Source: Micrococcales bacterium (lineage in GTDB: Bacteria > Actinomycetota > Actinomycetes > S36-B12). From it: 13,718 nucleotides of DNA. Shown here piece by piece: positions 1,237-11,533 of the stretch. Both the position numbers and the translations under genes were made by a program. The notes under the pieces were generated by a model, which did no database searches, had not been told where the DNA came from, and was given only the letters and a program-made list of their open reading frames with translations. Numbering within the stretch: position 1 is the stretch's first letter; each line of letters opens with the position of its first letter. The stretch lies in contig NZLD01000059.1 of the NCBI GenBank assembly GCA_002694095.1, positions 15,288-29,005 on the forward strand, given 5' to 3'.

Positions 1237-2503
1237 CGAACAACAGGTTTCCGTTGATTTCGACATCGTCCACCCACGCCCCGACCGCTTTTCGCGCACC
1301 ACTGCCCCGGGTGGTGACCTTCGCCTGAGTGGCCCGGTACTCGTCCACGATGCGCTCGGTGATCGGCGCCCATCCGTGCTCGGCGAGCACATGGCTTTGG
1401 GCCCGATCCGCTCGTGCGCGTGATTCCTGAGCGTCGTTGACACACGAGATAACCGCATTGGCGAGTTCGCGTGCGTTGCCGGCGTCGAAGGACCACCCGT
1501 GTCGATCGTTATCCAAAAACTCCGCGAGGCCACCGGCTCTCGACGTGACGACCGGCGTTCCCAGAACGGCGGCTTCGAGCGCAACGATGCCGAACGGTTC
1601 GTAGATGGAGGGAACGACGGCGACGTCAGCGTCTCGCACTAGTGCTCGTAGTTGGGCATCCGGCAGCCAGCCGGTAAAATCCACTCGCGGTGCGACGTCT
1701 TTGTCGTGGGCCAGTTCTTTCAGGGCCTCCTGCTGGGATCCGCGCCCCGCAACCACGAGGTGAGCGTCGGGAAGGGCGCGGCGGATGAACGGCATCGCTT
1801 CGATCACCGTGTGTGCACCTTTCTCCCACTCCAACCGTCCCGTGTGAACGATGAGCGGGCGCCCCTGCTGCGTGACGATGGATGCGGCAGCAGTCGTATC
1901 GACGAGAGGGGGCGGCGAATCGATGCCGTTCGGGATCACCGCCACATCCGACATGCCGAACAGGCGTTCCACCTCCCACTTCATGTGCCTGCTGCACACC
2001 AGGATCCGATCCGCGTGATCCACCGACCACTGTTCGACGCTGTGAATGGTGCGAGACAGGCCATTGGGTAACCACCCTTGATGACGGCCGGCCTCGGTCG
2101 CATGAATGGTGTGCACCCACGGAACACCGATCTCCTCAGTCACCGTGGCGGCGGCGCGAGCGGTGAGCCAGTCATGAGCGTGCACAACGTCTGGCTTCCA
2201 GGTTCGATCCAGGTGCAAAGCCCGCCGGGTCATCGCTGATTCCAGGCCCGAGACCCAGCCCATGAGCGTCTCCGCATCGAAGGGAACGAACGGGGCATCT
2301 CGAGCAACACGGATGACCCTCACCCCCTCCACCACCTCGCGGATTTCCTCCGCGGTGGCATCGTCAACGCTCAACCCCACGTGCGAGATCACCGTCACGT
2401 CGTGGCCGTCTCTCGCCTGCTGGGTTGCCACGGCATGGACGTGACGTCCCAGGCCCCCGTATACGACAGGTGGGAACTCCCACGAAAGATGACAAATATG
2501 CAC
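1226..2503 (-). CDS. GT4-family alpha-glucosyltransferase, Rv3032-like
   Basis: A 425-residue cytoplasmic retaining glycosyltransferase of the GT-B fold, expected to extend an alpha-1,4-glucan from a nucleotide-activated glucose. The N-terminal acceptor domain begins MHICHLSWEFPPVVYGGLGRH, with the GG loop of glycogen-synthase-like enzymes. VVHAHDW lies at 106-112 and HATEAGRHQGW near 134-144, which matches what I recall of Rv3032. The donor domain has TGRLEWEKG (221-229, Arg and Lys for phosphate contacts) and the EX7E motif EPFGIVALE (302-310). It starts at GTG 2503, whose first base is also the last base of the upstream methyltransferase TAG, with a GGGGTGAAG stretch just before it. The length fits the family (about 410-430). 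In mycobacteria this enzyme elongates the glucan of MGLP and contributes to other glucans; the same role here is inference. Confidence 0.92.
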   Translation of the reverse strand: MHICHLSWEFPPVVYGGLGRHVHAVATQQARDGHDVTVISHVGLSVDDATAEEIREVVEGVRVIRVARDAPFVPFDAETLMGWVSGLESAMTRRALHLDRTWKPDVVHAHDWLTARAAATVTEEIGVPWVHTIHATEAGRHQGWLPNGLSRTIHSVEQWSVDHADRILVCSRHMKWEVERLFGMSDVAVIPNGIDSPPPLVDTTAAASIVTQQGRPLIVHTGRLEWEKGAHTVIEAMPFIRRALPDAHLVVAGRGSQQEALKELAHDKDVAPRVDFTGWLPDAQLRALVRDADVAVVPSIYEPFGIVALEAAVLGTPVVTSRAGGLAEFLDNDRHGWSFDAGNARELANAVISCVNDAQESRARADRAQSHVLAEHGWAPITERIVDEYRATQAKVTTRGSGARKAVGAWVDDVEINGNLLFDVQ

Positions 2504-3507
2504 TACGGCTTCACCCCGGTCACGCCTACGTTGTAAAAGAACCCGTCAGGGACAACGGCGGCGAGGACGTTGCGGTCGAGAGCGTTCAATCGTTGCCACC
2601 CACGGTAAGCGAAGTTCGCCCACGACCAACCGAGCACTCCCGGCTTCACCGCTGCCTCGAAGGTGCGCACGGGCCACCCGAACCACGCGGCCGTCAACTC
2701 CTCCGTGCACGTCCGAACATCCACCGCCCCCGCACGCATGCAGGCCGCTGCAAGGCGCTCCGGATCGAACGTATGCAGGTCGACAATCGCCTCCAACGCT
2801 TCTTCTCGTGACGATTGTTCGAGTTCCTCGGACGACTTCGCCCAGTTGTTCGGGACCAGCGGCACGGCAGCAGCGAAACGCGCAGACCGCCACGTGAGCC
2901 GGGACAAACGACGGGCAACAAAGTCCCCCTTGCGGGTCGGTTCGCCGCACACAACGAAACGCCCACCCGGGCGGAGCACTCGCATGATCTCCCGCAGCGC
3001 TTGATCGACGTCGGGAATGTGATGGAGAAAAGCGTGACCGACGACGAGGTCGAAAGACGCATCATCGAAAGGCAGTTCTTCTACATCGGCGACCTGACCT
3101 GAGACCTGCAGGCCTAACTGCTCCGCGTTGCGTACTGCCTGATCGACCATTCCCTGGGAAATGTCGGTCACGGTCCCTGACGTCGCGACACCGGATTGCA
3201 TCAGATTCAGCAGAAAGAATCCGGTACCGCCACCGATCTCGAGTGCGGTCTCCGCAGGCAGGTGCATGTGATCACCGACAAGGCGATCGAAAATATCGTG
3301 CGCGTACTCGATACACCGATCGTCGTAAGAGATGCTCCACTTGTCGTCGTAAGTTGCCGCTTCCCAATCGTGGTAGACGACATTCGCCAACTTCGGATCA
3401 CTCCAGGCAGCGTCCAGAGCGTCCACCGGCGGCACGGCGTCACTTACGGCGTCGCTAACAGCGTCGCTAACAGCGTCACTTACAGCGTCGCCTATGTCAT
3501 TCGTCAT
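2503..3507 (-). CDS. Class I SAM-dependent methyltransferase with N-terminal SDAV repeats
   Basis: A 334-residue cytoplasmic methyltransferase of the UbiE/Methyltransf_11 type. Residues 6-25 are five GDAV/SDAV repeats, an unusual acidic lead-in. Next is a stretch containing KLANVVYHDWEAATYDDKW (39-57). The Rossmann core has motif I EIGGGTGFF (90-98), the ribose-binding acidic residue D115, ADVEELPF (140-147), FDLVVGHAFLHHI (152-164) and LRPGGRF (178-184). A C-terminal extension of about 140 residues is characteristic of the actinobacterial subgroup, which I associate with Rv3038c. The gene starts 17 nt after the crotonase stop (AAGGA about 14 nt upstream of the ATG) and ends overlapping the glucosyltransferase start. 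The substrate is unknown; a sugar O-methylation in a methylated polysaccharide is suggested only by the neighbours. Confidence 0.88.
   Translation of the reverse strand: MTNDIGDAVSDAVSDAVSDAVSDAVPPVDALDAAWSDPKLANVVYHDWEAATYDDKWSISYDDRCIEYAHDIFDRLVGDHMHLPAETALEIGGGTGFFLLNLMQSGVATSGTVTDISQGMVDQAVRNAEQLGLQVSGQVADVEELPFDDASFDLVVGHAFLHHIPDVDQALREIMRVLRPGGRFVVCGEPTRKGDFVARRLSRLTWRSARFAAAVPLVPNNWAKSSEELEQSSREEALEAIVDLHTFDPERLAAACMRAGAVDVRTCTEELTAAWFGWPVRTFEAAVKPGVLGWSWANFAYRGWQRLNALDRNVLAAVVPDGFFYNVGVTGVKP
3433..3492. repeat. 12-bp in-frame tandem repeat (5 copies)
   Basis: Five 12-bp units encode GDAV followed by four SDAV at the N-terminus of the methyltransferase (minus strand). Units differ at synonymous positions (GCT/GCC, GTA/GTT/GTG, AGT/AGC) while the peptide stays constant apart from the first Gly. 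This suggests an older repeat than the one in the acyltransferase, possibly kept at the protein level. Confidence 0.95.
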
Positions 3508-4316: not shown

Positions 4317-4487
4317 CGGACACCCCTCACTTACGACGTGACGTACCGTTCAATCGAACCGGTCCTTCGGACTGTGAGCGTAGCCCTCGGTCGGATTCAC
4401 CGACTCGCTCGTCGTCTCCCGTCGCCCCTCGTCGTCTCCCGTCGCAGCCGTTCGGGTGAGAACCCGCGCGCACTAGGGTTTGTGGTC
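4317..4487. promoter_or_regulatory. Divergent intergenic region between crotonase operon and aldo/keto reductase
   Basis: These 171 bp separate two divergent start codons and must hold both promoters. I could not place convincing -10/-35 pairs. The left end carries the crotonase ribosome site (GAGGGG on the minus strand). The middle holds a 20-bp-period direct repeat. The right end (CACTAGGGTTTGTGGTC before ATG 4488) gives only a weak ribosome site (AGGG). Confidence 0.5.
4408..4445. repeat. Direct repeat of CTCGTCGTCTCCCGTCGC
   Basis: Two identical 18-bp copies (4408-4425 and 4428-4445) with a 2-bp spacer, giving a 20-bp period, 43-80 bp upstream of the aldo/keto reductase start. A two-turn period would place two protein sites on the same DNA face, but a simple slippage duplication is equally possible. 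Confidence 0.85.
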
Positions 4488-5486
4488 ATGGAATTTCGGC
4501 ACCTCGGGCGCAGTGGACTGAAGATCAGCGCCCTGACGTACGGCAACTGGATTACGCACGGCTCGCAGGTGGACGACACAACCGCGCACGCAACGATCCA
4601 CGCCGCACTCGATGCGGGAATCACAACGTTCGACACTGCGGACGTCTATGCCGGCACCCGAGCCGAAGAGGTCATGGGTGCAGCACTTCGCGGCCAACGA
4701 CGCGAAGGAGTGGAGATCTTCACGAAGGTCTACTGGCCCACCGGACCGGGTGTGAATGATCGTGGCCTGTCTCGCAAACACATCATGGAGTCTTGCGAGG
4801 CTTCGCTTCGACGCCTGCAGACCGACTACGTCGACCTCTACCAAGCGCACCGCTACGACTACAGCACCCCGCTCGAGGAGACCCTGCGTGCCTTCGATGA
4901 TCTCGTTCGTCAGGGCAAGGTGCTCTACGTCGGTGTGTCGGAGTGGACGGCGGACGAGATTCGCGAAGCAACGCGGATCGCCGCAGACATGGGATTCGAC
5001 CGGATCATCAGCAACCAGCCCCAGTACTCGATGCTCTACCGAGTGATCGAAGCGGAGGTGGTGCCAGCATGCGAGGAACTCGGCATCGGGCAAATCGTGT
5101 GGTCACCGATGGCCCAGGGGGTTCTCACCGGAAAGTACGAACCCGGGCGGCAACCACCAGCGGGCTCGCGCGCGTCCGGGGGTGAAGGCGCATCGATAAT
5201 CGAGCGGTGGATGCGGGACGACGTCCTTCATGCGGTTCAGCGACTCGCCCCCATCGCACGCGACATGGATCTCACCTTGTCGCAGTTAGCCATCGCCTGG
5301 GTGCTCACGAACCCCAACGTGGCCGCGGCGATCATCGGCGCCTCTCGGCCCGAGCAAATCGACGAAAACGTCAAGGCGGCCGGCATCACCCTTCCCGACG
5401 ACGTCATGAGTGCGATCGACTACGCCCTCGGGGATCTCGTCATCAGCGATCCGCGCCTGACCAAGTCGCCGAACCCACGCCCGTAG
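4488..5486 (+). CDS. Aldo/keto reductase (potassium-channel beta-subunit-like family)
   Basis: A 332-residue NADPH-dependent oxidoreductase of the AKR TIM-barrel superfamily, reducing aldehydes or ketones in the cytoplasm; the natural substrate is unknown. The catalytic tetrad is complete: D49 and Y54 in FDTADVY, K80 in IFTKVYW and H121 in YQAHRYD. The cofactor side has SNQPQYSML, IVWSPMAQGVLTGKY and IIGASRPEQIDENVKA. The start MEFRHLGRSGLKIS matches the family exactly, so the open frame extending about 740 nt upstream, antisense to the crotonase, is not coding. The small protein gene begins 41 bp after its stop and may be cotranscribed. The ribosome site is weak (AGGG). Confidence 0.94.
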   Translation: MEFRHLGRSGLKISALTYGNWITHGSQVDDTTAHATIHAALDAGITTFDTADVYAGTRAEEVMGAALRGQRREGVEIFTKVYWPTGPGVNDRGLSRKHIMESCEASLRRLQTDYVDLYQAHRYDYSTPLEETLRAFDDLVRQGKVLYVGVSEWTADEIREATRIAADMGFDRIISNQPQYSMLYRVIEAEVVPACEELGIGQIVWSPMAQGVLTGKYEPGRQPPAGSRASGGEGASIIERWMRDDVLHAVQRLAPIARDMDLTLSQLAIAWVLTNPNVAAAIIGASRPEQIDENVKAAGITLPDDVMSAIDYALGDLVISDPRLTKSPNPRP

Positions 5487-5527: not shown

Positions 5528-5731
5528 ATGGGATGGACCTGGACCTACGCCAACGCATCAGGCACCGCCGTGTCCCCCGCCTCGGGCACGGACGAAGCGT
5601 TCACCAGTCAAGCCGACGCCGAGTCCTGGATCGGTGAGAATTTTCGAACGCTGGTCGATGAGGGAGTCGACACCGTCACGCTGTTAGAAGACGGGTCGGT
5701 GACGTACGAGATGGGCCTGCACCCGGAGTAG
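5528..5731 (+). CDS. Small acidic protein of unknown function (67 aa)
   Basis: A 67-residue protein that I recognise only as resembling short uncharacterised actinobacterial proteins beginning MGWTW. It has no signal peptide, membrane segment or cysteine. Aromatic residues cluster at the N-terminus (W3, W5, Y7). The middle (FTSQADAESWIGENFRTL) reads as an amphipathic helix, followed by a beta-hairpin-like VDTVTLLEDGSVTYEMGL. The ribosome site GGGAGGAAG is strong and about 3 nt from ATG 5528, supporting a real gene. It lies 41 bp after the aldo/keto reductase and before the riboswitch promoter. Function cannot be assigned. Confidence 0.85.
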   Translation: MGWTWTYANASGTAVSPASGTDEAFTSQADAESWIGENFRTLVDEGVDTVTLLEDGSVTYEMGLHPE

Positions 5732-5766
5732 TCCATCTTTCAACCACGCCGGATACCCGTCGTCCT

Positions 5767-5796
5767 TTGACACGAGCACCGGTGCCGTGGTCAGAT
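5767..5796 (+). promoter_or_regulatory. Candidate sigma70-type promoter for the riboswitch operon
   Basis: TTGACA (5767-5772) matches the -35 consensus perfectly. With an 18-bp spacer, TCAGAT (5791-5796) is a weak -10. Transcription would start near 5803, just upstream of the cobalamin aptamer, which is the expected position. Confidence 0.5.
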
Positions 5797-5805
5797 TCGA
5801 CCACA

Positions 5806-5980
5806 ACTAAATGCACGCGTTCGACGTCCAGGGGAAGTCGGTGCAAATCCGACGCTGTCCCGCAACCGTGAGTTCATCGAGGCCCGGGTCTCGAATCGAG
5901 CGAGTCGGAGCACCTGGCGAGCGCGAGCGGCTCCATCCGTCGAGGTAACGGGACGAGTCCACGGGATCACCCTGACGCGT
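5806..5980 (+). promoter_or_regulatory. Cobalamin (AdoCbl-type) riboswitch
   Basis: The core is recognisable. A stem GTCGG-TGCAAAT-CCGAC (5837-5853) is followed directly by the B12 box GCTGTCCCGCAACCGTGAG (5854-5872). GAGTCGGAGCACCTGG (about 5902-5917) then forms the closing segment, with CCAGG (5828-5832) pairing to CCTGG (5913-5917). The usual AGGGAA-like entry is present as AGGGGAAG. Outer boundaries are approximate. The stretch from about 5920 to 5980 is expression platform leading to the intrinsic terminator. It is expected to turn the downstream operon off when B12 is plentiful, and so marks that operon as cobalamin-related. No coding sequence lies in 5732-6065. Confidence 0.92.
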
Positions 5981-6010
5981 CTCTCATGCCCAAGCATGAG
6001 GGATTTTTTT
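5980..6010 (+). terminator. Rho-independent terminator of the riboswitch
   Basis: Stem CTCATGC/GCATGAG (5983-5989 and 5994-6000), loop CCAA, extended by T-G, C-G and T-A pairs to 5980/6003, immediately followed by seven T (6004-6010). It sits between the aptamer and the first gene, so it is most simply the ligand-controlled transcription stop. Confidence 0.9.
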
Positions 6011-6065
6011 GTCGGGCGGTCTACGAGGACAGCGCTCCGGACCGCTCTACAGAAAAGAGATACCC

Positions 6066-7106
6066 GTGACTACCCGAGTCTCGTCCGCCACCAGGGTCGG
6101 CAGAAGTGTCCTTGCGGCACTCGGCACCGTCTCACTTTCCGCCGCTGTGCTCACCGCCCCGGCACACGCAGCCGATACCGGACTGTTTGGAACTCAAGAC
6201 GCAACGTACGACGGCGTCTACCGTCAATCGCTGGCGATCGCAGGTCTGGCTGCCACCGATGCGCGCATTCCCGCAGCCGCGGTCGACTGGCTGGCAGATC
6301 AGCAGTGTGCTGACGGATCGTTCGAAGCCTTCCGGTCGAACACATCGACCCCCTGCTCCCCTTCTGATCCTAAGAACTTCTCCGGTCCGGATACCAACAG
6401 CACAGCCATGGCGGCCATCGCGCTGTATTTGGCCGGTCGCACCGCACCGGCACGTGACGCCATCGTGTGGCTGAACAACGTGCAGAACGACGATTGGGGC
6501 TTCCCCTTCTACGCTGGCGGCGCATCCGATGCCAACTCCACCGCCTTGTCGGTCATGGCACTGCAAACCGTTCAACCGCAGGATCGAAGCGGACGTGTTC
6601 CGAACGCCCAGGAGTGGCTCGGCACACTGAAACTGAAGTGCGCCAGCGGTGGTGGGCTCGCGTATCAAAAGGGCAGTAAGGCAAACGGGCTCGCGTCCGC
6701 CCAGGGGCTGATGGGTCTGGCCGGAGCCCTACCGGTATCCGCACAAGAAGACCTCACAGCCGATCCCACCTGCCGCAAGCGAAACACGAACGCCAATGTC
6801 GGTGCGTTCGTAGCTACGGCCATCGACGACGACGGTGCCTTGACGTCCGACTTCGGCTCCGGTGCCGACTACACCTCCACGGGCTGGGCCCTGCTGGGCC
6901 TCACGGCCTTCGGCACCGGTTCCTCCGCCGTTCCGACAGCACTGGCGACCTTGCAGAACAACGTGCGCTCCTACGCCTACGCCGACAACGAGTTAGTGCC
7001 GGGTGCGGTGGGACTCCTGCTGCTCGTGGCCGAGGCGACCGATAGCAATCCGCGCGACTTCGGGGGCGTCAACCTCGTTCGCGCACTGAGCCGCAGCCTG
7101 CAGTGA
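6066..7106 (+). CDS. Secreted alpha/alpha-toroid protein, transcobalamin/intrinsic-factor barrel-like
   Basis: 346 residues. A Sec signal peptide occupies residues 1-35 (two Arg, a hydrophobic run, then cleavage after AHA before ADTG). The mature part is built of squalene-cyclase/prenyltransferase-type helical repeats: DGVYRQSLAIAGLAA (49-63), CADGSFEAF...DTNSTAMAAIAL (81-120), DDWGFPFYAGGASDANSTALSVMAL (142-166), GGLAYQKGSKANGLASAQGLMGLAG (196-220), DFGSGADYTSTGWALLGL (262-279). The recurrent D-x-N-STA-M/L-x-x-x-AL pattern recalls the cobalamin-binding alpha6-alpha6 barrel of transcobalamin and intrinsic factor. There are four Cys (81, 97, 192, 236), possibly two disulfides. GTG 6066 is chosen because the frame upstream runs into the terminator. 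It is the first gene after the B12 riboswitch and overlaps the next by GTGA. Cobalamin binding is inferred; an enzymatic terpene-cyclase role is unlikely for a secreted protein in this context. Confidence 0.85.
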   Translation: MTTRVSSATRVGRSVLAALGTVSLSAAVLTAPAHAADTGLFGTQDATYDGVYRQSLAIAGLAATDARIPAAAVDWLADQQCADGSFEAFRSNTSTPCSPSDPKNFSGPDTNSTAMAAIALYLAGRTAPARDAIVWLNNVQNDDWGFPFYAGGASDANSTALSVMALQTVQPQDRSGRVPNAQEWLGTLKLKCASGGGLAYQKGSKANGLASAQGLMGLAGALPVSAQEDLTADPTCRKRNTNANVGAFVATAIDDDGALTSDFGSGADYTSTGWALLGLTAFGTGSSAVPTALATLQNNVRSYAYADNELVPGAVGLLLLVAEATDSNPRDFGGVNLVRALSRSLQ

Positions 7107-7852
7107 CCACTCGGGGAGCGGCGCCGACTCATCGGTCGATCAGTGCTGTGGCATTGATCGCGGTGCTGATGGTCGGCGTCGCTACCCCGTCCGCGGTCGC
7201 AACCACCACCTACCGTTACTGGTCCTACTGGATCGCTGACGCCGGAACGTCACCCGAGTGGGGCTACGCATCGGAAGGGGCCGGAACCCGCGTCCCCGCC
7301 GACGGCTCGGTGGAAGGCTGGCGCTTCGGGTTGGCCGGTCAAGTGTCCGACATCAAACCGTCTATCGATCCCGACTTCGAGTCGATCTGCGCGGGAACCG
7401 AGCGTCAAGACGACACCAAGCGCGTCGGGGTCGTGATCGACCCCGGAACAGTCGACGAGTCGCCCGACGGTGAGCAACCCGGCGCACTCATGGCCACCTG
7501 CGTCGTCGTCGATGAGTCCGCGACCGGACTGGCGATCGCGCAAGCCGTCGCCGACGTGCGAGTGGAGTCCGGTTTCGTGTGTGGAATCGACGGTTATCCG
7601 GCGAGCGAGTGCGCGCCCTTGGTCGAGGTCCCGACTACTTCCCGTGCGGATGACGCATCGCCGACGCAATCCGACGAGGTCGACAACGTCGATCAAATCG
7701 ATGCTGCGTCCGGAGTTAGCGACTCCCCCGACGAGCCACCCACACAAGAGACGTCCCCCACAACACCGCTCGCCGCGGCGCTCACGGTGTCGGTTATCGC
7801 GGTGGTCGGCTTCGCGCTGTGGCGCCGCTCTCGACAGGCGGCGACGCGATGA
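7103..7852 (+). CDS. Secreted, C-terminally anchored protein (SCO2322-like); possible transcobalamin beta-domain partner
   Basis: 249 residues. Signal peptide 1-33 (cleavage after AVA). An extracytoplasmic domain of about 140 residues follows, beginning TTTYRYWSYW (34-43) and including EWGYASEGAG (52-61) and PADGSVEGWRFGL (65-77). Four Cys (96, 133, 160, 170) could form two disulfides. Residues 174-220 are an acidic Ser/Thr/Pro linker. A transmembrane helix (about 222-240) is followed by RRSR, leaving the domain outside the cell. I recall such proteins being named the SCO2322 family, found beside ECF transporter genes. The YW...G...P.DG..E..R pattern resembles DUF4430 and the C-terminal beta domain of transcobalamins. 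GTG 7103 overlaps the upstream stop and ATGA joins it to EcfT. A lid or docking partner for the toroid protein is inference. Confidence 0.82.
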   Translation: MTTRGAAPTHRSISAVALIAVLMVGVATPSAVATTTYRYWSYWIADAGTSPEWGYASEGAGTRVPADGSVEGWRFGLAGQVSDIKPSIDPDFESICAGTERQDDTKRVGVVIDPGTVDESPDGEQPGALMATCVVVDESATGLAIAQAVADVRVESGFVCGIDGYPASECAPLVEVPTTSRADDASPTQSDEVDNVDQIDAASGVSDSPDEPPTQETSPTTPLAAALTVSVIAVVGFALWRRSRQAATR

Positions 7853-9036
7853 CGGCACCCACGGTCACGATGGGCACGAGCCACGCCACCGAGCCCAACC
7901 TCGCACGAGACGACCGGGCCCGATGGCTGCACCCGCTGGCGTGGTGGGCGTGGGCTCTAGGTGTCGCGGCCGCGGCCAGCATGACCACGAACCCGCTGCT
8001 GCTGCTCGGGCTGATTACCTGCACGGCCGTTGTGGTCGACCGTCGACGCTCCGATGCTCCCTGGGCGCGATCGTTCGGATTCTTCCTTCGGCTCGCACTC
8101 ATCGTCGTCGCGTTTCGACTCGTCGCACAGATTGTCTTCGTCGCCCCGATGGGAACCACGGTGCTACTCGAGCTGCCGGGGATCACGCTTCCTTCGTGGC
8201 TCGCGGGCATCCGCCTCGGTGGCACGCTCATGCTCGAACCCGCACTCCATGCCCTCTACGAGGGCCTTCGCCTGGCCGCGATCATCGTCGCGGTGGGAGC
8301 CGCCAGCTCACTCGCCTCACCCCATCGATTGCTGAAATCGATACCGGCAGCGGTGTATGAGGTCGGTGTCAGTGTTGTGGTCGCCACGACTTTTCTTCCT
8401 CAACTCGCCAGTGATGTGGCTCGCATTCGTGCCAACCGACGTCTGCGCGGTCGCACGGACTCCGGTCTGCGAGGAGTCAGTGGGACCGTCATGCCCGTAC
8501 TGCACGGAGCCATGGATCGATCGATCGCACTCGCGGCGGCCATGGACTCTCGTGGGTACGGCCGATCAGCGACCGTCAGCCGTGCGCGGTCTCGACTGAC
8601 GGCGACCGTGTTCATTGTCGGCCTCGCGGCCATCGCGATCGGCACGTACGGAGTTCTTGGAACCGGATCACTTGCCACCTGGGGGGCGGGAATCTTGATC
8701 GCGGGAGTGGTGTGCGTGGTCGTGGGTGTTTCGCTCGCTGGTCGCCGGAGTCTTCGCACGCGCTACCGCCCCAATACGTGGCACCGGCCGGACATTCTCA
8801 CCGCACTCGCCGGCGGCGTCGTCGCTGCGACGTTCGTAATCGCGTCCGTTCAGGACGCCGCGGGCATGAACCCATCGACGTCACCGCCGCTGTGGCCGAC
8901 GCTTCCGGTCCTTGCCCTCATCGGCCTGGTGGCGGCACTGGCTCCGGCGTACCTGACTCCCCCACCGCCATCGGTCGGACCCGCGACCGATGGCGACCCG
9001 GCCAGACTCGACCCGCCAGGGCGGGCCGAGTCGTGA
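7849..9036 (+). CDS. ECF transporter transmembrane component (EcfT/CbiQ family)
   Basis: 395 residues, the integral membrane T component that couples ATP hydrolysis to the substrate-binding S component. Hydrophobic helices lie at about 28-46, 48-63, 79-98, 136-156, 170-186, 252-270, 277-297, 315-335 and 350-369. The two cytosolic coupling-helix segments are visible: VARIRANRRLRGR (190-202) and AMDSRGYGRS (231-240), the latter being the Ala/Ser-Arg-Gly signature that docks on the ATPases. The start ATG 7849 (ATGA with the preceding stop) is preferred over upstream starts inside the neighbour. It is longer than minimal EcfT proteins (about 265 residues) because of four extra C-terminal helices and a Pro-rich tail. 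It ends GTGA into the ATPase gene. Confidence 0.92.
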   Translation: MTAPTVTMGTSHATEPNLARDDRARWLHPLAWWAWALGVAAAASMTTNPLLLLGLITCTAVVVDRRRSDAPWARSFGFFLRLALIVVAFRLVAQIVFVAPMGTTVLLELPGITLPSWLAGIRLGGTLMLEPALHALYEGLRLAAIIVAVGAASSLASPHRLLKSIPAAVYEVGVSVVVATTFLPQLASDVARIRANRRLRGRTDSGLRGVSGTVMPVLHGAMDRSIALAAAMDSRGYGRSATVSRARSRLTATVFIVGLAAIAIGTYGVLGTGSLATWGAGILIAGVVCVVVGVSLAGRRSLRTRYRPNTWHRPDILTALAGGVVAATFVIASVQDAAGMNPSTSPPLWPTLPVLALIGLVAALAPAYLTPPPPSVGPATDGDPARLDPPGRAES

Positions 9037-10646
9037 TCGAGTTCGACAACGTCTCCATTCGGTACAGCCCGGGCGCACCCTGTGTGGTGGACAACGTCAA
9101 CCTGACCGTTGCCGAGGGTGAATTCATCCTCGTCGTCGGTGGGACGGGGTCGGGGAAGAGCACCTTGCTCGGGGCGATCAACGGGCTGGTGCCCCATTTC
9201 ACCGGTGGGGTCTTGACCGGCGATGTGCGCATCGACGGACGGAGCATCTCGACCAACCGACCGCGCGATCTGGCCGACCTGGTGGGCGTGGTCCCCCAGG
9301 ACCCGATGGCAAGTTTCGTCACCGACACGGTCGAGGAAGAACTCGCGTACACCATGGAGTGCCTCGGCATCGCTCCCGCCGTGATGCGTCGCCGGGTGGA
9401 GGAGACTCTCGACCTTCTGGGCCTGCAAGAACTACGCCACCGGCCCTTGCGGACCCTCAGTGGAGGCCAACGACAGCGCGCGGCAATCGGCGCGGTGCTC
9501 ACCGCGCATCCGCGGGTACTCGTCCTCGATGAACCCACCTCCGCACTCGACCCCGGGGCGGCGGAGGAAGTCCTCGCCGCGTTGCATCGACTCGTTCACG
9601 ATCTCGGCGTCACCGTCGTTCTCGCCGAACACCGCCTCGAGCGGGTCTTGCAATACGCCGACCGGATCATCGCCTTGAGTTCCCCCGGGGGTCCGATCAC
9701 TATCGGCAGCCCGGCAGACGTCATGTCGACGGCACCCATCGCACCACCCGTCGTCCACCTCGGACGCGTCGCGGGCTGGAGCCCGACCCCGATCACCGTC
9801 CGAGACGCACGCCGCCAGGCTTCTACGCTGCGGCAACTACTCGTCGGTCACGTACCGCCGGTGCGCGTGATCGAACAATCCACCGTGGCGGCAACGACGG
9901 AACACCTCGAGATCCATTACGGGACCACGCGAGCTTTGCGCTCGGTCTCCACCACGCTGCACCGGGGAGAAGTCATCGCGTTGATGGGTCGCAACGGTGC
10001 GGGGAAGTCGACAATGCTCCACTCACTCGTCGGTATGACAAAGCCCACGGATGGATCGATCGACATCGCCGGAGTTCAACCGAGTGACGTCGACGGCCCT
10101 GAGCTCATCCGCCGAGTCGGCCTCGTTCCTCAAGAGCCGGCTGACCTTCTCGAGGCGGCGACGGTCGCAGAGGAATGCGCAGCGTCCGACAAGGATGCTG
10201 GGTGCGACCCCGGAACAACCCGCGCACTACTGGCGCTTCTCGCACCCGAAATCGTCGACACCACGCACCCTCGCGACCTCAGCGAGGGTCAGCGACTGCT
10301 GTTGGTGTTGAGTCTCGTCTTGGCGGCTCGGCCCGGGGTGATCTGCCTCGACGAGCCCACCCGCGGGCTGGACTACTCAACCAAGGAACGCCTCGCCGGT
10401 GTCATCTCGGACCTTTCCTCGGCCGGTCACACCGTCATCGTCGCAACGCACGACGTCGAACTCGCCGCCGACGTGGCGTCTCGCGTGATCATCCTCGCCG
10501 ACGGCGAAATCGTTGCCGATGGATCCACCGCAGACGTCATCACCTCCTCGCCGATGTTCGCACCACAGGTCGCCAAGATCCTGGCTCCGCAACCATGGTT
10601 GACCGTTGAGCAAGTCCGTCAGACACTCGCGCAGGACTCGGCATGA
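9033..10646 (+). CDS. ECF transporter ATPase, two fused nucleotide-binding domains (EcfA1-EcfA2)
   Basis: 537 residues with two ABC domains in one chain. NBD1: Walker A GGTGSGKST (36-44), Q-loop VVPQDP (86-91), signature LSGGQ (142-146), Walker B VLVLDE (162-167) and switch His200 in LAEHRLERV. The Q-loop context QDPMASFVTDTVEEELAY is typical of ECF ATPases. NBD2: Walker A GRNGAGKST (319-327), VPQEP (365-369), a non-canonical signature LSEGQ (416-420), Walker B VICLDE (436-441) and His473 in ATHDVEL. NBD2 is therefore also likely competent. GTG 9033 is set by the 4-nt overlap with EcfT; the frame is open further upstream but that region encodes EcfT. ATGA overlaps the S component. Confidence 0.95.
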   Translation: MIEFDNVSIRYSPGAPCVVDNVNLTVAEGEFILVVGGTGSGKSTLLGAINGLVPHFTGGVLTGDVRIDGRSISTNRPRDLADLVGVVPQDPMASFVTDTVEEELAYTMECLGIAPAVMRRRVEETLDLLGLQELRHRPLRTLSGGQRQRAAIGAVLTAHPRVLVLDEPTSALDPGAAEEVLAALHRLVHDLGVTVVLAEHRLERVLQYADRIIALSSPGGPITIGSPADVMSTAPIAPPVVHLGRVAGWSPTPITVRDARRQASTLRQLLVGHVPPVRVIEQSTVAATTEHLEIHYGTTRALRSVSTTLHRGEVIALMGRNGAGKSTMLHSLVGMTKPTDGSIDIAGVQPSDVDGPELIRRVGLVPQEPADLLEAATVAEECAASDKDAGCDPGTTRALLALLAPEIVDTTHPRDLSEGQRLLLVLSLVLAARPGVICLDEPTRGLDYSTKERLAGVISDLSSAGHTVIVATHDVELAADVASRVIILADGEIVADGSTADVITSSPMFAPQVAKILAPQPWLTVEQVRQTLAQDSA

Positions 10647-11533
10647 GCTCCAAGACCATCACCCGCACCGCGAAAGCCATTCCTCTGGGCACCCGGTCGA
10701 TTCTCGCCGTGTCTTTGGCCTCCGTAGTCGGCTTGATCGCCTTCTTGTGGCCGTTCCTCGCCGCCCCGGAGTCGGCTGTGGTCGCTCACGCCACCGATGC
10801 ACCGTTCTTCTTCGCACTCCTGGTGCCTCTGGTCTTGGTGGTTGTTCTTGCGCAATTCGCCGACGGCGCCATGGACGCCAAGTCGATTGCTCTGCTCGGC
10901 GTTCTCTCCGCAGTTATCGCCGCATTGCGGCCGCTGGGTGCGGGGGTAGCCGGAATAGAACCCATTTGGGCGGTCCTCATTCTCGGCGGCTTCGCGTTGG
11001 GGCCCGGGTTCGGTTTCGTCTTGGGTTCGGTGTCGTTATTCGCCTCCGCACTCATTACCGGCGGCGTCGGCCCCTGGCTCCCCTTTCAGATGATCGCTGC
11101 CGCATGGATTGGCATGGGCGCGGGTCTCATCGCGAGAATCCCCGTCGTCCAGCGGTTCACCTCGAACCACCCCTGGCGCGAGGTGCTCCTCGTTGCCGGG
11201 TACGCACTTCTCGCCGCTGTCGCCTACGGCTTCGCCCTCAATTTGTGGTTTTGGCCATTCACAGTCGACCTCGCGCCGGCCATCGCATTCCAACCCGGCG
11301 CCCCCGCAGTGGAGAACGTTGCCGCGTGGCTTCGCTTCAGCGTCGTCACCTCGCTCGGGTTCGACATTCCCCGGGCCCTCCTGGCCGCCGGGTTGATCCT
11401 GATCGCGGGCAGAGGCGTGCTTATTGCTCTGCGACGGGCCAGCCGCCGAGCGGCGTTCGATCACGTTGTCGACTTCGCGCCGCATGATGGCGTGGCGAAC
11501 ACCTCCGACCCGCGCACACCATCGGGCACCTAG
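10643..11533 (+). CDS. ECF transporter S component, predicted cobalamin/corrinoid binding
   Basis: A 296-residue polytopic membrane protein, longer than the usual 170-210 residue S components. Helices lie at about 18-40, 54-72, 82-96, 106-120, 122-139, 146-163, 181-200 and 245-263. The conserved-looking core LRPLGAGVAGIEPIWAVLIL and GPGFGFVLGSVSLFASALITGGVGPWLPFQM (95-150) is what I associate with actinobacterial S components next to SCO2322-type genes. The C-terminus is a polar tail of about 35 residues. It is the last gene of the five-gene operon, joined by ATGA to the ATPase. Riboswitch control and the transcobalamin-like neighbours make B12 or a corrinoid the likely substrate. Cobalt is an alternative, but no CbiM/CbiN-type metal site is evident. 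Confidence 0.87.
   Translation: MSSKTITRTAKAIPLGTRSILAVSLASVVGLIAFLWPFLAAPESAVVAHATDAPFFFALLVPLVLVVVLAQFADGAMDAKSIALLGVLSAVIAALRPLGAGVAGIEPIWAVLILGGFALGPGFGFVLGSVSLFASALITGGVGPWLPFQMIAAAWIGMGAGLIARIPVVQRFTSNHPWREVLLVAGYALLAAVAYGFALNLWFWPFTVDLAPAIAFQPGAPAVENVAAWLRFSVVTSLGFDIPRALLAAGLILIAGRGVLIALRRASRRAAFDHVVDFAPHDGVANTSDPRTPSGT

Follow-up and report, generated by a model that had tools for sequence, protein, structure and literature searches.

How an energy-coupling factor (ECF) importer might capture cobalamin outside the membrane is the question raised by an operon in a 13,718-nt stretch of DNA from a Micrococcales bacterium (assembly GCA_002694095.1, contig NZLD01000059.1, positions 15,288 to 29,005, forward strand), which we call the window. 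Downstream of a cobalamin riboswitch and a terminator-like hairpin lie five genes in the same direction, the ends of which overlap by a few bases, in the following order: a gene encoding an alpha/alpha-toroid protein, a gene of the SCO2322 family (the beta gene, encoding the beta protein), and the genes for EcfT, a double ATPase and an S component. According to the usual teaching, ECF importers work without an extracellular binding protein. The first-pass annotation of the window had proposed that the first two products are the separately encoded domains of a transcobalamin-like binder, which capture the vitamin together and pass it to the S component. Our analysis, which compared sequences, profiles, predicted structures and gene neighborhoods, indicated that the beta protein is a circular permutant, probably related to DUF4430 domains, and that it, and not the toroid, accompanies the ECF module throughout.

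The beta gene (7103..7852, + strand) passed the cut-off of the SCO2322 family (NF040672; 142.4 bits versus 85), and its product is predicted to comprise an export signal, a permuted beta domain, a low-complexity linker and a C-terminal anchor. A hydropathy scan marked residues 9-27 and 219-237 (the latter at 7757..7813, + strand) as hydrophobic, and from hydropathy alone we predict that they are the export signal and the anchor, respectively. A scan of named genomes for related loci yielded 66 loci, 64 of which were of the window type; in the other two, L065 (a Bifidobacteriaceae assembly) and L066 (a Microthrixaceae assembly), which represent a sister family whose genes occupy ECF operons of the same type, two blocks of the beta domain occurred in the opposite order. 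Comparison of the permuted and sister profiles gave the same two blocks in swapped order. The half YRYWSYW...VEGWRFG (7211..7339, + strand; E 1.7e-13), which resembles the C-terminal half of DUF4430, comes first in the window and last in the sister family, and the half KRVGVVID...CGIDGYPASEC (7418..7612, + strand; E 8.3e-7), which resembles the N-terminal half, comes second in the window and first in the sister family. When the permuted profile was doubled, a single 107-column alignment covered positions 7-118 of 121 in a sister profile built from the 39 of 120 sister proteins that fitted the cutting pattern (E 2.2e-18).

The swap was general among the proteins that we classified, namely the best 120 matches from each protein search (the searches gave 339, 300 and 967). 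With separate models for the two halves, where A is the half that opens the sister domain, the order was B-A in 117 of the best 120 window-type homologs, and the remaining three were short proteins with one half only. Among the 967 relatives retrieved with the L066 domain as query, the best 120 were examined, and all 120 showed the sister-type order A-B. No protein among the 240 classified contained either half twice. Four cysteines correspond around the circle; they were present in 179, 178, 179 and 178 of 179 permuted rows and in 58, 67, 67 and 64 of 67 canonical rows. The window's assembly consists of 96 contigs, and an error of assembly or reading frame, or a convergence of short motifs, could in principle mimic a swapped order. 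However, the agreement of 117 of 120 homologs, the presence of isolates such as Kribbella and Streptomyces among the loci, the strong E-values of both blocks and the matching cysteines leave such an artefact practically no chance. As judged from these alignments, the beta protein is a circular permutant relative to the sister family.

The predicted structure of the beta domain (pLDDT 93.2) consisted, from the cut point, of two strands, a helix, short strands and two further strands, an order in keeping with a beta-grasp fold. Searches with this model using Foldseek and VIA-align returned no useful row; such a result is expected for a permuted chain or a new fold, and thus it is not evidence either way. 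The permuted order may also explain why the domain was missed by Foldseek and by the Pfam model of DUF4430.

DUF4430 lies at the C-terminus of transcobalamins, according to passages of PMC4350170. The Pfam DUF4430 model (PF14478) matched neither the window's beta protein nor re-ordered or doubled copies of its domain, nor did it match L065, L066 or the fusion proteins L116 and L117 described below; because of this, we used profile-profile comparison with shuffled controls. The DUF4430 profile was made from 19 domains of a phylum sample, in which 26 of 149 genomes carry DUF4430; none was found in the window's genome. On trimmed columns, the doubled permuted profile scored 37.1 against DUF4430 (150 column shuffles, mean 11.4 and maximum 21.2; reversed, 10.3), and the canonical sister profile, built from 67 sequences thinned from 133, scored 25.5 (150 shuffles, mean 11.0 and maximum 18.5; reversed, 10.5). 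The corresponding HHalign probabilities were 74% and 26%. Without trimming, the doubled permuted profile reached 30.8 and 29.8 and the sister profile 23.9, the shuffle controls being those of the trimmed columns only. Both alignments followed the order of DUF4430 itself. These comparisons suggest a link to DUF4430 that is above the controls but distant, and the curated Pfam cut-off was not reached. The proposal that the beta protein is a transcobalamin-type second domain therefore survives as a distant resemblance, but not as an ordinary C-domain, since its halves are swapped. Two further candidates were rejected: a DUF4430 match in the same-class genome G107, considered as a bridge, proved to be a different small secreted protein, and in a search of the PDB with the sister-family profile both alignments shown fell in a low-complexity tail.

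The genes around the beta gene were then compared at 61 loci for which 1.5 kb or more of upstream sequence was available, comprising 59 of the window type and the two of the sister type. A toroid gene was found upstream of the beta gene at 16 loci, including both sister-type loci, and none was found at the other 45. Homologs of EcfT, the ATPase and the S component were present 3' of the SCO2322-type gene at all 46 loci for which the downstream sequence extended to 4.5 kb or more, an association beyond what chance would give. A toroid anywhere in the genome was sought in 26 of the 45 genomes that lack one upstream; 22 of the 26 gave no match, and six of six controls were found. In the other four, sequences resembling toroids occurred elsewhere in the genome (best E 1.4e-19, 6.6e-6, 7.3e-6 and 3.7e-4); the strongest of them equalled the toroids of some sister-type clusters. 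Since the toroid is absent at 45 of 61 loci and the ECF genes are present at 46 of 46, it is the beta protein rather than the toroid that constantly accompanies the ECF module; in terms of gene content the toroid is an addition to a beta-ECF module. The idea of an obligatory toroid-beta pair was thus not borne out. Comparison of the beta domains of 15 toroid-bearing loci with those of 45 toroid-less loci also revealed no clear interface signature.

This constancy is what one would also expect under the main rival explanation, in which the beta protein serves as an accessory subunit, either joining EcfT to the S component or gating the latter; it would never bind cobalamin, and selection would fall to the S component alone. 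CbiN plays such an accessory role for CbiM. An EcfT gene 3' of the beta gene at 46 of 46 loci, against a 5' toroid gene at only 16 of 61, fits a CbiN-like subunit, as does the predicted membrane anchor, and passages of PMC5997447 on the solved CbrT system mention no extracellular binder. A subunit that never binds the ligand would, however, leave unaccounted for the resemblance of the beta profile to DUF4430, the family of the transcobalamin C-domain, as well as two observations presented in the following paragraphs, namely the toroid-beta fusions and the DUF4430 proteins that take the place of the beta protein in riboswitch-led ECF-toroid clusters. We consider the CbiN-like role unlikely on balance.

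The two domains were joined in one frame in several relatives. L116 encodes a 771-residue frame consisting of a toroid, a canonical beta domain and cell-wall-binding repeats, and L117 encodes a 961-residue frame with a toroid, two beta domains and the same repeats. Together with G226 and G258, in which the fusions were judged by coordinates, at least four of 49 beta-gene genomes carry the toroid and the beta domain in one frame. On L117, the permuted-family model aligned across the two beta domains, running from the last half of the first one to the beginning of the next (25.7 bits; an earlier model behaved in the same way), the pattern expected if the permuted form corresponds to the middle of such a tandem. 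The permutation probably goes back to a tandem duplication, after which copy one lost its first half and copy two its last half. In a quick tree of 48 ATPases (31 from permuted-type loci, eight from canonical loci and nine from DUF4430 clusters), at least two changes between the canonical and permuted forms were required, and the tree is compatible both with a single origin of the permuted form and with more than one. One genome of the same class, G171 (L115), has two such operons, one permuted (C1:1886183-1888392) and one canonical (C1:3652217-3657942); a DUF4430-like ORF closes the canonical operon.

Clustering of the two genes was examined in a phylum sample of 296 genomes, in which a beta place was a match with E up to 2e-8, counted once per cluster (further places in the same cluster, in G162, G204, G214, G247, G258 and G294, were excluded). 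A toroid gene lay within 6 kb of 40 of the 52 beta places, corresponding to 38 of 49 genomes. A toroid match was present in 43 of the 49 beta-gene genomes versus 100 of the 296 genomes overall, where the toroid places counted end at weak matches and the genomes sampled are not independent of each other. The view that the two domains are partner genes therefore gains from the clustering and the fusions, but the partnership is not an obligatory one.

Nine further clusters combined DUF4430, ECF and toroid genes. They were chosen for a toroid and DUF4430 on one contig, a combination found in at least 11 of the 26 DUF4430 genomes, and all nine contained DUF4430, an ATPase and a toroid; EcfT was detected in five and an S component in eight. 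A cobalamin-clan riboswitch was located upstream on the same strand in eight of the nine, at distances from 20 bp to 3.4 kb. In six loci (L098-L103), a single ORF of 853-972 codons, in several cases with an exported-like start, was situated between the riboswitch and the DUF4430 gene. One cluster (L107:2174-4654) contained, in a row, a riboswitch, three candidate binders (DUF4430, toroid and beta), EcfT and the ATPase. Among the ten sister-type stretches L108-L117, a riboswitch lay directly 5' of the toroid or fusion gene in three (L108, L114 and L116), and a 14-kb segment of L114 contained two toroid-beta pairs together with four cobalamin riboswitch matches.

The toroid gene of the window (6066..7106, + strand) opens with a GTG that was picked by eye, the ORF itself opening at 6009. 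Its 346-residue product has a hydrophobic segment at the N-terminus, and from hydropathy it is predicted to be exported. By far the best family was SCO2321 (NF053823; 201.8 bits, below the cut-off of 300). The predicted structure (pLDDT 97.1) was an alpha/alpha toroid of about a dozen helices, and its top structural matches were squalene-hopene cyclases; neither transcobalamin nor intrinsic factor appeared among the 50 matches listed. A confident alpha/alpha toroid was thus obtained, as the first-pass annotation had envisaged, but the specific likeness to the transcobalamin barrel did not emerge from these matches. The cyclase matches raise the possibility of a terpene cyclase- or glycosidase-like enzyme that shares the operon by chance. 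Class II cyclases need a D-x-D-D motif, and no such motif was present in the majority consensus of 82 toroid homologs. Because the protein is also predicted to be exported, is encoded no more than 6 kb from the beta gene in 38 of 49 genomes and is fused to the beta domain in relatives, we regard an unrelated enzyme as very improbable.

The control elements and the transport genes of the window agreed with the initial description. The riboswitch aptamer (RF00174; 5805..5935, + strand) exceeded the Rfam gathering score (42.8 versus 31.5 bits; E 4.2e-8). Between it and the first gene lies an intrinsic-terminator-like element (5979..6010, + strand), which consists of a hairpin of 11 pairs at 5979-6004 with a T run directly 3'. 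Two terminator-like sites, one per strand, were found in 5650-6120, versus 0.3 expected in shuffles, and the folding energy of segment 5940-6020 was -31.4 kcal/mol (z -2.2). A scan of 5650-6120 for a sigma-70-type promoter found none. The presence of a B12 riboswitch with a terminator was thereby confirmed, as were the toroid, the protein with its predicted C-terminal anchor, EcfT, the double ATPase and the S component in a row.

The product of the third gene (7849..9036, + strand), a probable CbiQ-like transmembrane coupling protein with eight hydrophobic segments, scored 12.2 bits against CbiQ, under the cut-off of 25; all eight EcfT homologs tested from the same operon type exceeded that cut-off. 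The double EcfA ATPase (9033..10646, + strand) has two nucleotide-binding domains in one chain, with two Walker A and two signature-like motifs. It passed the cut-off of the cbiO family (243.9 bits versus 211.8) and scored 302.4 and 299.1 against two ECF_ATPase equivalog models, under their cut-offs of 330 and 315. The S component (10643..11533, + strand) matched ECF_trnsprt (PF12822; 34.7 bits, cut-off 30.7). This protein alone gave no PDB match, and a profile of 24 S components matched no PDB chain at E 10, in a copy of that database in which the presence of the CbrT structure 6FNP was unchecked.

What the operon imports was approached through its riboswitches and neighboring genes. In the 17 of 64 window-type loci that were searched, a cobalamin-clan riboswitch lay directly ahead of five of eight permuted operons with a toroid and ahead of four of nine without one. 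Genes 3' of the S component were examined in four loci (six proteins), those with cob genes being operons that lack a toroid: cobU and cobS were found in L007 (Kribbella) and cobS in L040 and L051, and no cob gene was found in L018. Import, by the same mechanism, of cobinamide, cobyrinate diamide or a similar corrinoid precursor, or of another cobalt-containing ligand, would fit these genes, and CobS was also found in five of 12 genomes whose beta locus has no toroid. A predicted importer, cbrUVT, is labelled for cobyrinate diamide uptake in passages of a review (PMC8123684). Finishing of a precursor would need CobS, however, and no CobS match was found in the window's genome (92% complete) or in seven other small genomes, assemblies that are partly incomplete. 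Since cobalamin-clan riboswitches also lead many of the operons, we judge a precursor in place of cobalamin itself to be improbable, at about the level of the CbiN-like role.

The window's genome itself contains three B12-binding domains over the cut-off, of which, by eye, one looks like that of methylmalonyl-CoA mutase and one like a corrinoid methyltransferase protein; Met_synt_B12 was sought there and not found. It also encodes one periplasmic-binding-type protein beside a FecCD-like permease (by eye), a system that is perhaps for heme, and therefore the operon may not be the only B12 route of the host. The beta-ECF contigs of L013, L023, L042, L044, L047, L050 and L056 are titled Bifidobacterium breve, Streptomyces griseus or Candidatus Fonsibacter lacus. 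The ATPase of L050 groups with Planktophila-type rows, and these titles look like wrong bin names.

Taken together, we favor the reading in which the permuted, DUF4430-related beta protein, predicted to be anchored, grips cobalamin together with the toroid and hands it to the S component, and we consider this likely. Under cobalamin shortage, the riboswitch would allow read-through of the terminator. One jaw, near the S component, would be the anchored beta domain, which would grip cobalamin like the C-domain of transcobalamin. Where present, the toroid would be the other jaw, closing over cobalamin and improving capture; it would be dispensable, because most loci close to the window lack it. 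Cobalamin would then pass to the S component, and the ATPases would drive uptake.

A more ambitious version is one that we put forward only tentatively and that we would sooner doubt than accept. It describes an ECF importer that depends on a substrate-binding protein, in which the permuted transcobalamin half, tethered next to the S component, is the essential jaw and the toroid is a detachable one, discarded by many lineages. Through the permutation, the membrane tether would have shifted from the last strand to the loop that follows strand three, so that the binding face came to point at the S component. Evolution would have passed through the split, fused, tandem and permuted forms, and the animal carriers would be a side branch of the fused form.

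Transcobalamin and intrinsic factor are soluble carriers made of one chain with the usual strand order. The window differs from them in having two genes, a permuted beta domain, a predicted anchor and an ECF importer; the likeness would lie in an alpha/alpha barrel and a small beta-grasp domain that close on cobalamin, as set out in passages of PMC1796856. In those passages, Burroughs et al. (2007) described a transcobalamin clade of the SLBB beta-grasp superfamily in Gram-positive bacteria and proposed that secreted or anchored transcobalamin-like domains, often fused to a toroid and encoded near CbiO/CbiQ-like genes, scavenge B12 or its precursors. Transcobalamin-like binders beside CbiO/CbiQ have thus been in print since 2007, at least in outline (PMC1796856), and the general idea is not new. 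The window's protein, which hydropathy predicts to be secreted and anchored, likewise sits in an operon with CbiO/CbiQ-like genes. Hosts of that clade would also be expected to lack key enzymes of B12 synthesis; as regards CobS, the enzyme sought here, the window's genome gave no match and five of 12 relatives gave one. The clade was found by transcobalamin-based profiles, according to the same passages, whereas the halves of the window's domain are swapped and the DUF4430 model missed it; furthermore, the toroid of the window is a separate gene that is often missing in relatives. The strings 'permut', 'Streptomyces' and 'riboswitch' are absent from the main text of PMC1796856. The permutation, the tandem form and the combination of an optional toroid with a constant beta protein were not found in the open-licence literature that was searched.

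Other known systems share single features with the operon. ECF-CbrT of Lactobacillus delbrueckii combines an ECF module with a corrinoid S component; in contrast to the window, passages of PMC5997447 describe no extracellular binder and an ECF module shared among S components. Passages of PMC8123684 name cbrUVT among B12 uptake transporters and name no extracellular binder. The surface lipoproteins BtuG and BtuH of Bacteroides are extracellular B12 binders that aid an importer, but in outer-membrane systems (PMC10404256; passages of PMC8941943); the word transcobalamin is absent from the main text of the BtuH paper (PMC8941943). The UFD domain of E1 is a circularly permuted beta-grasp with shifted termini, but its cut point is elsewhere, the first strand having moved to the end, and no permuted transcobalamin-type domain is described in these passages (PMC1949818).

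The remainder of the window contains several other features. An aldo/keto reductase gene (4437-5486) and a 67-codon ORF (5528-5731) are both located 5' of the riboswitch. By eye, a similar reductase and a related small protein also precede the beta gene in the Kribbella loci L007, L009 and L014, which suggests that the neighborhood is old. NDVPD repeats occur at 1170-1240 in the ORF at 403-1584, and DAVS repeats occur at 3430-3500 in a methyltransferase-like ORF at 2503-3507.

If the beta protein is indeed the constant extracellular partner of a whole ECF branch, it would change the binder-free picture of ECF importers. The proposal gives a testable function to the NCBIfam families SCO2321 and SCO2322, the names of which state none and which have members in Streptomyces and Kribbella isolates. 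With canonical, fused, tandem and permuted versions of a single domain at hand, the way in which a circular permutation may arise can be viewed directly, and the series bears on the origin of the B12 carriers of animals.

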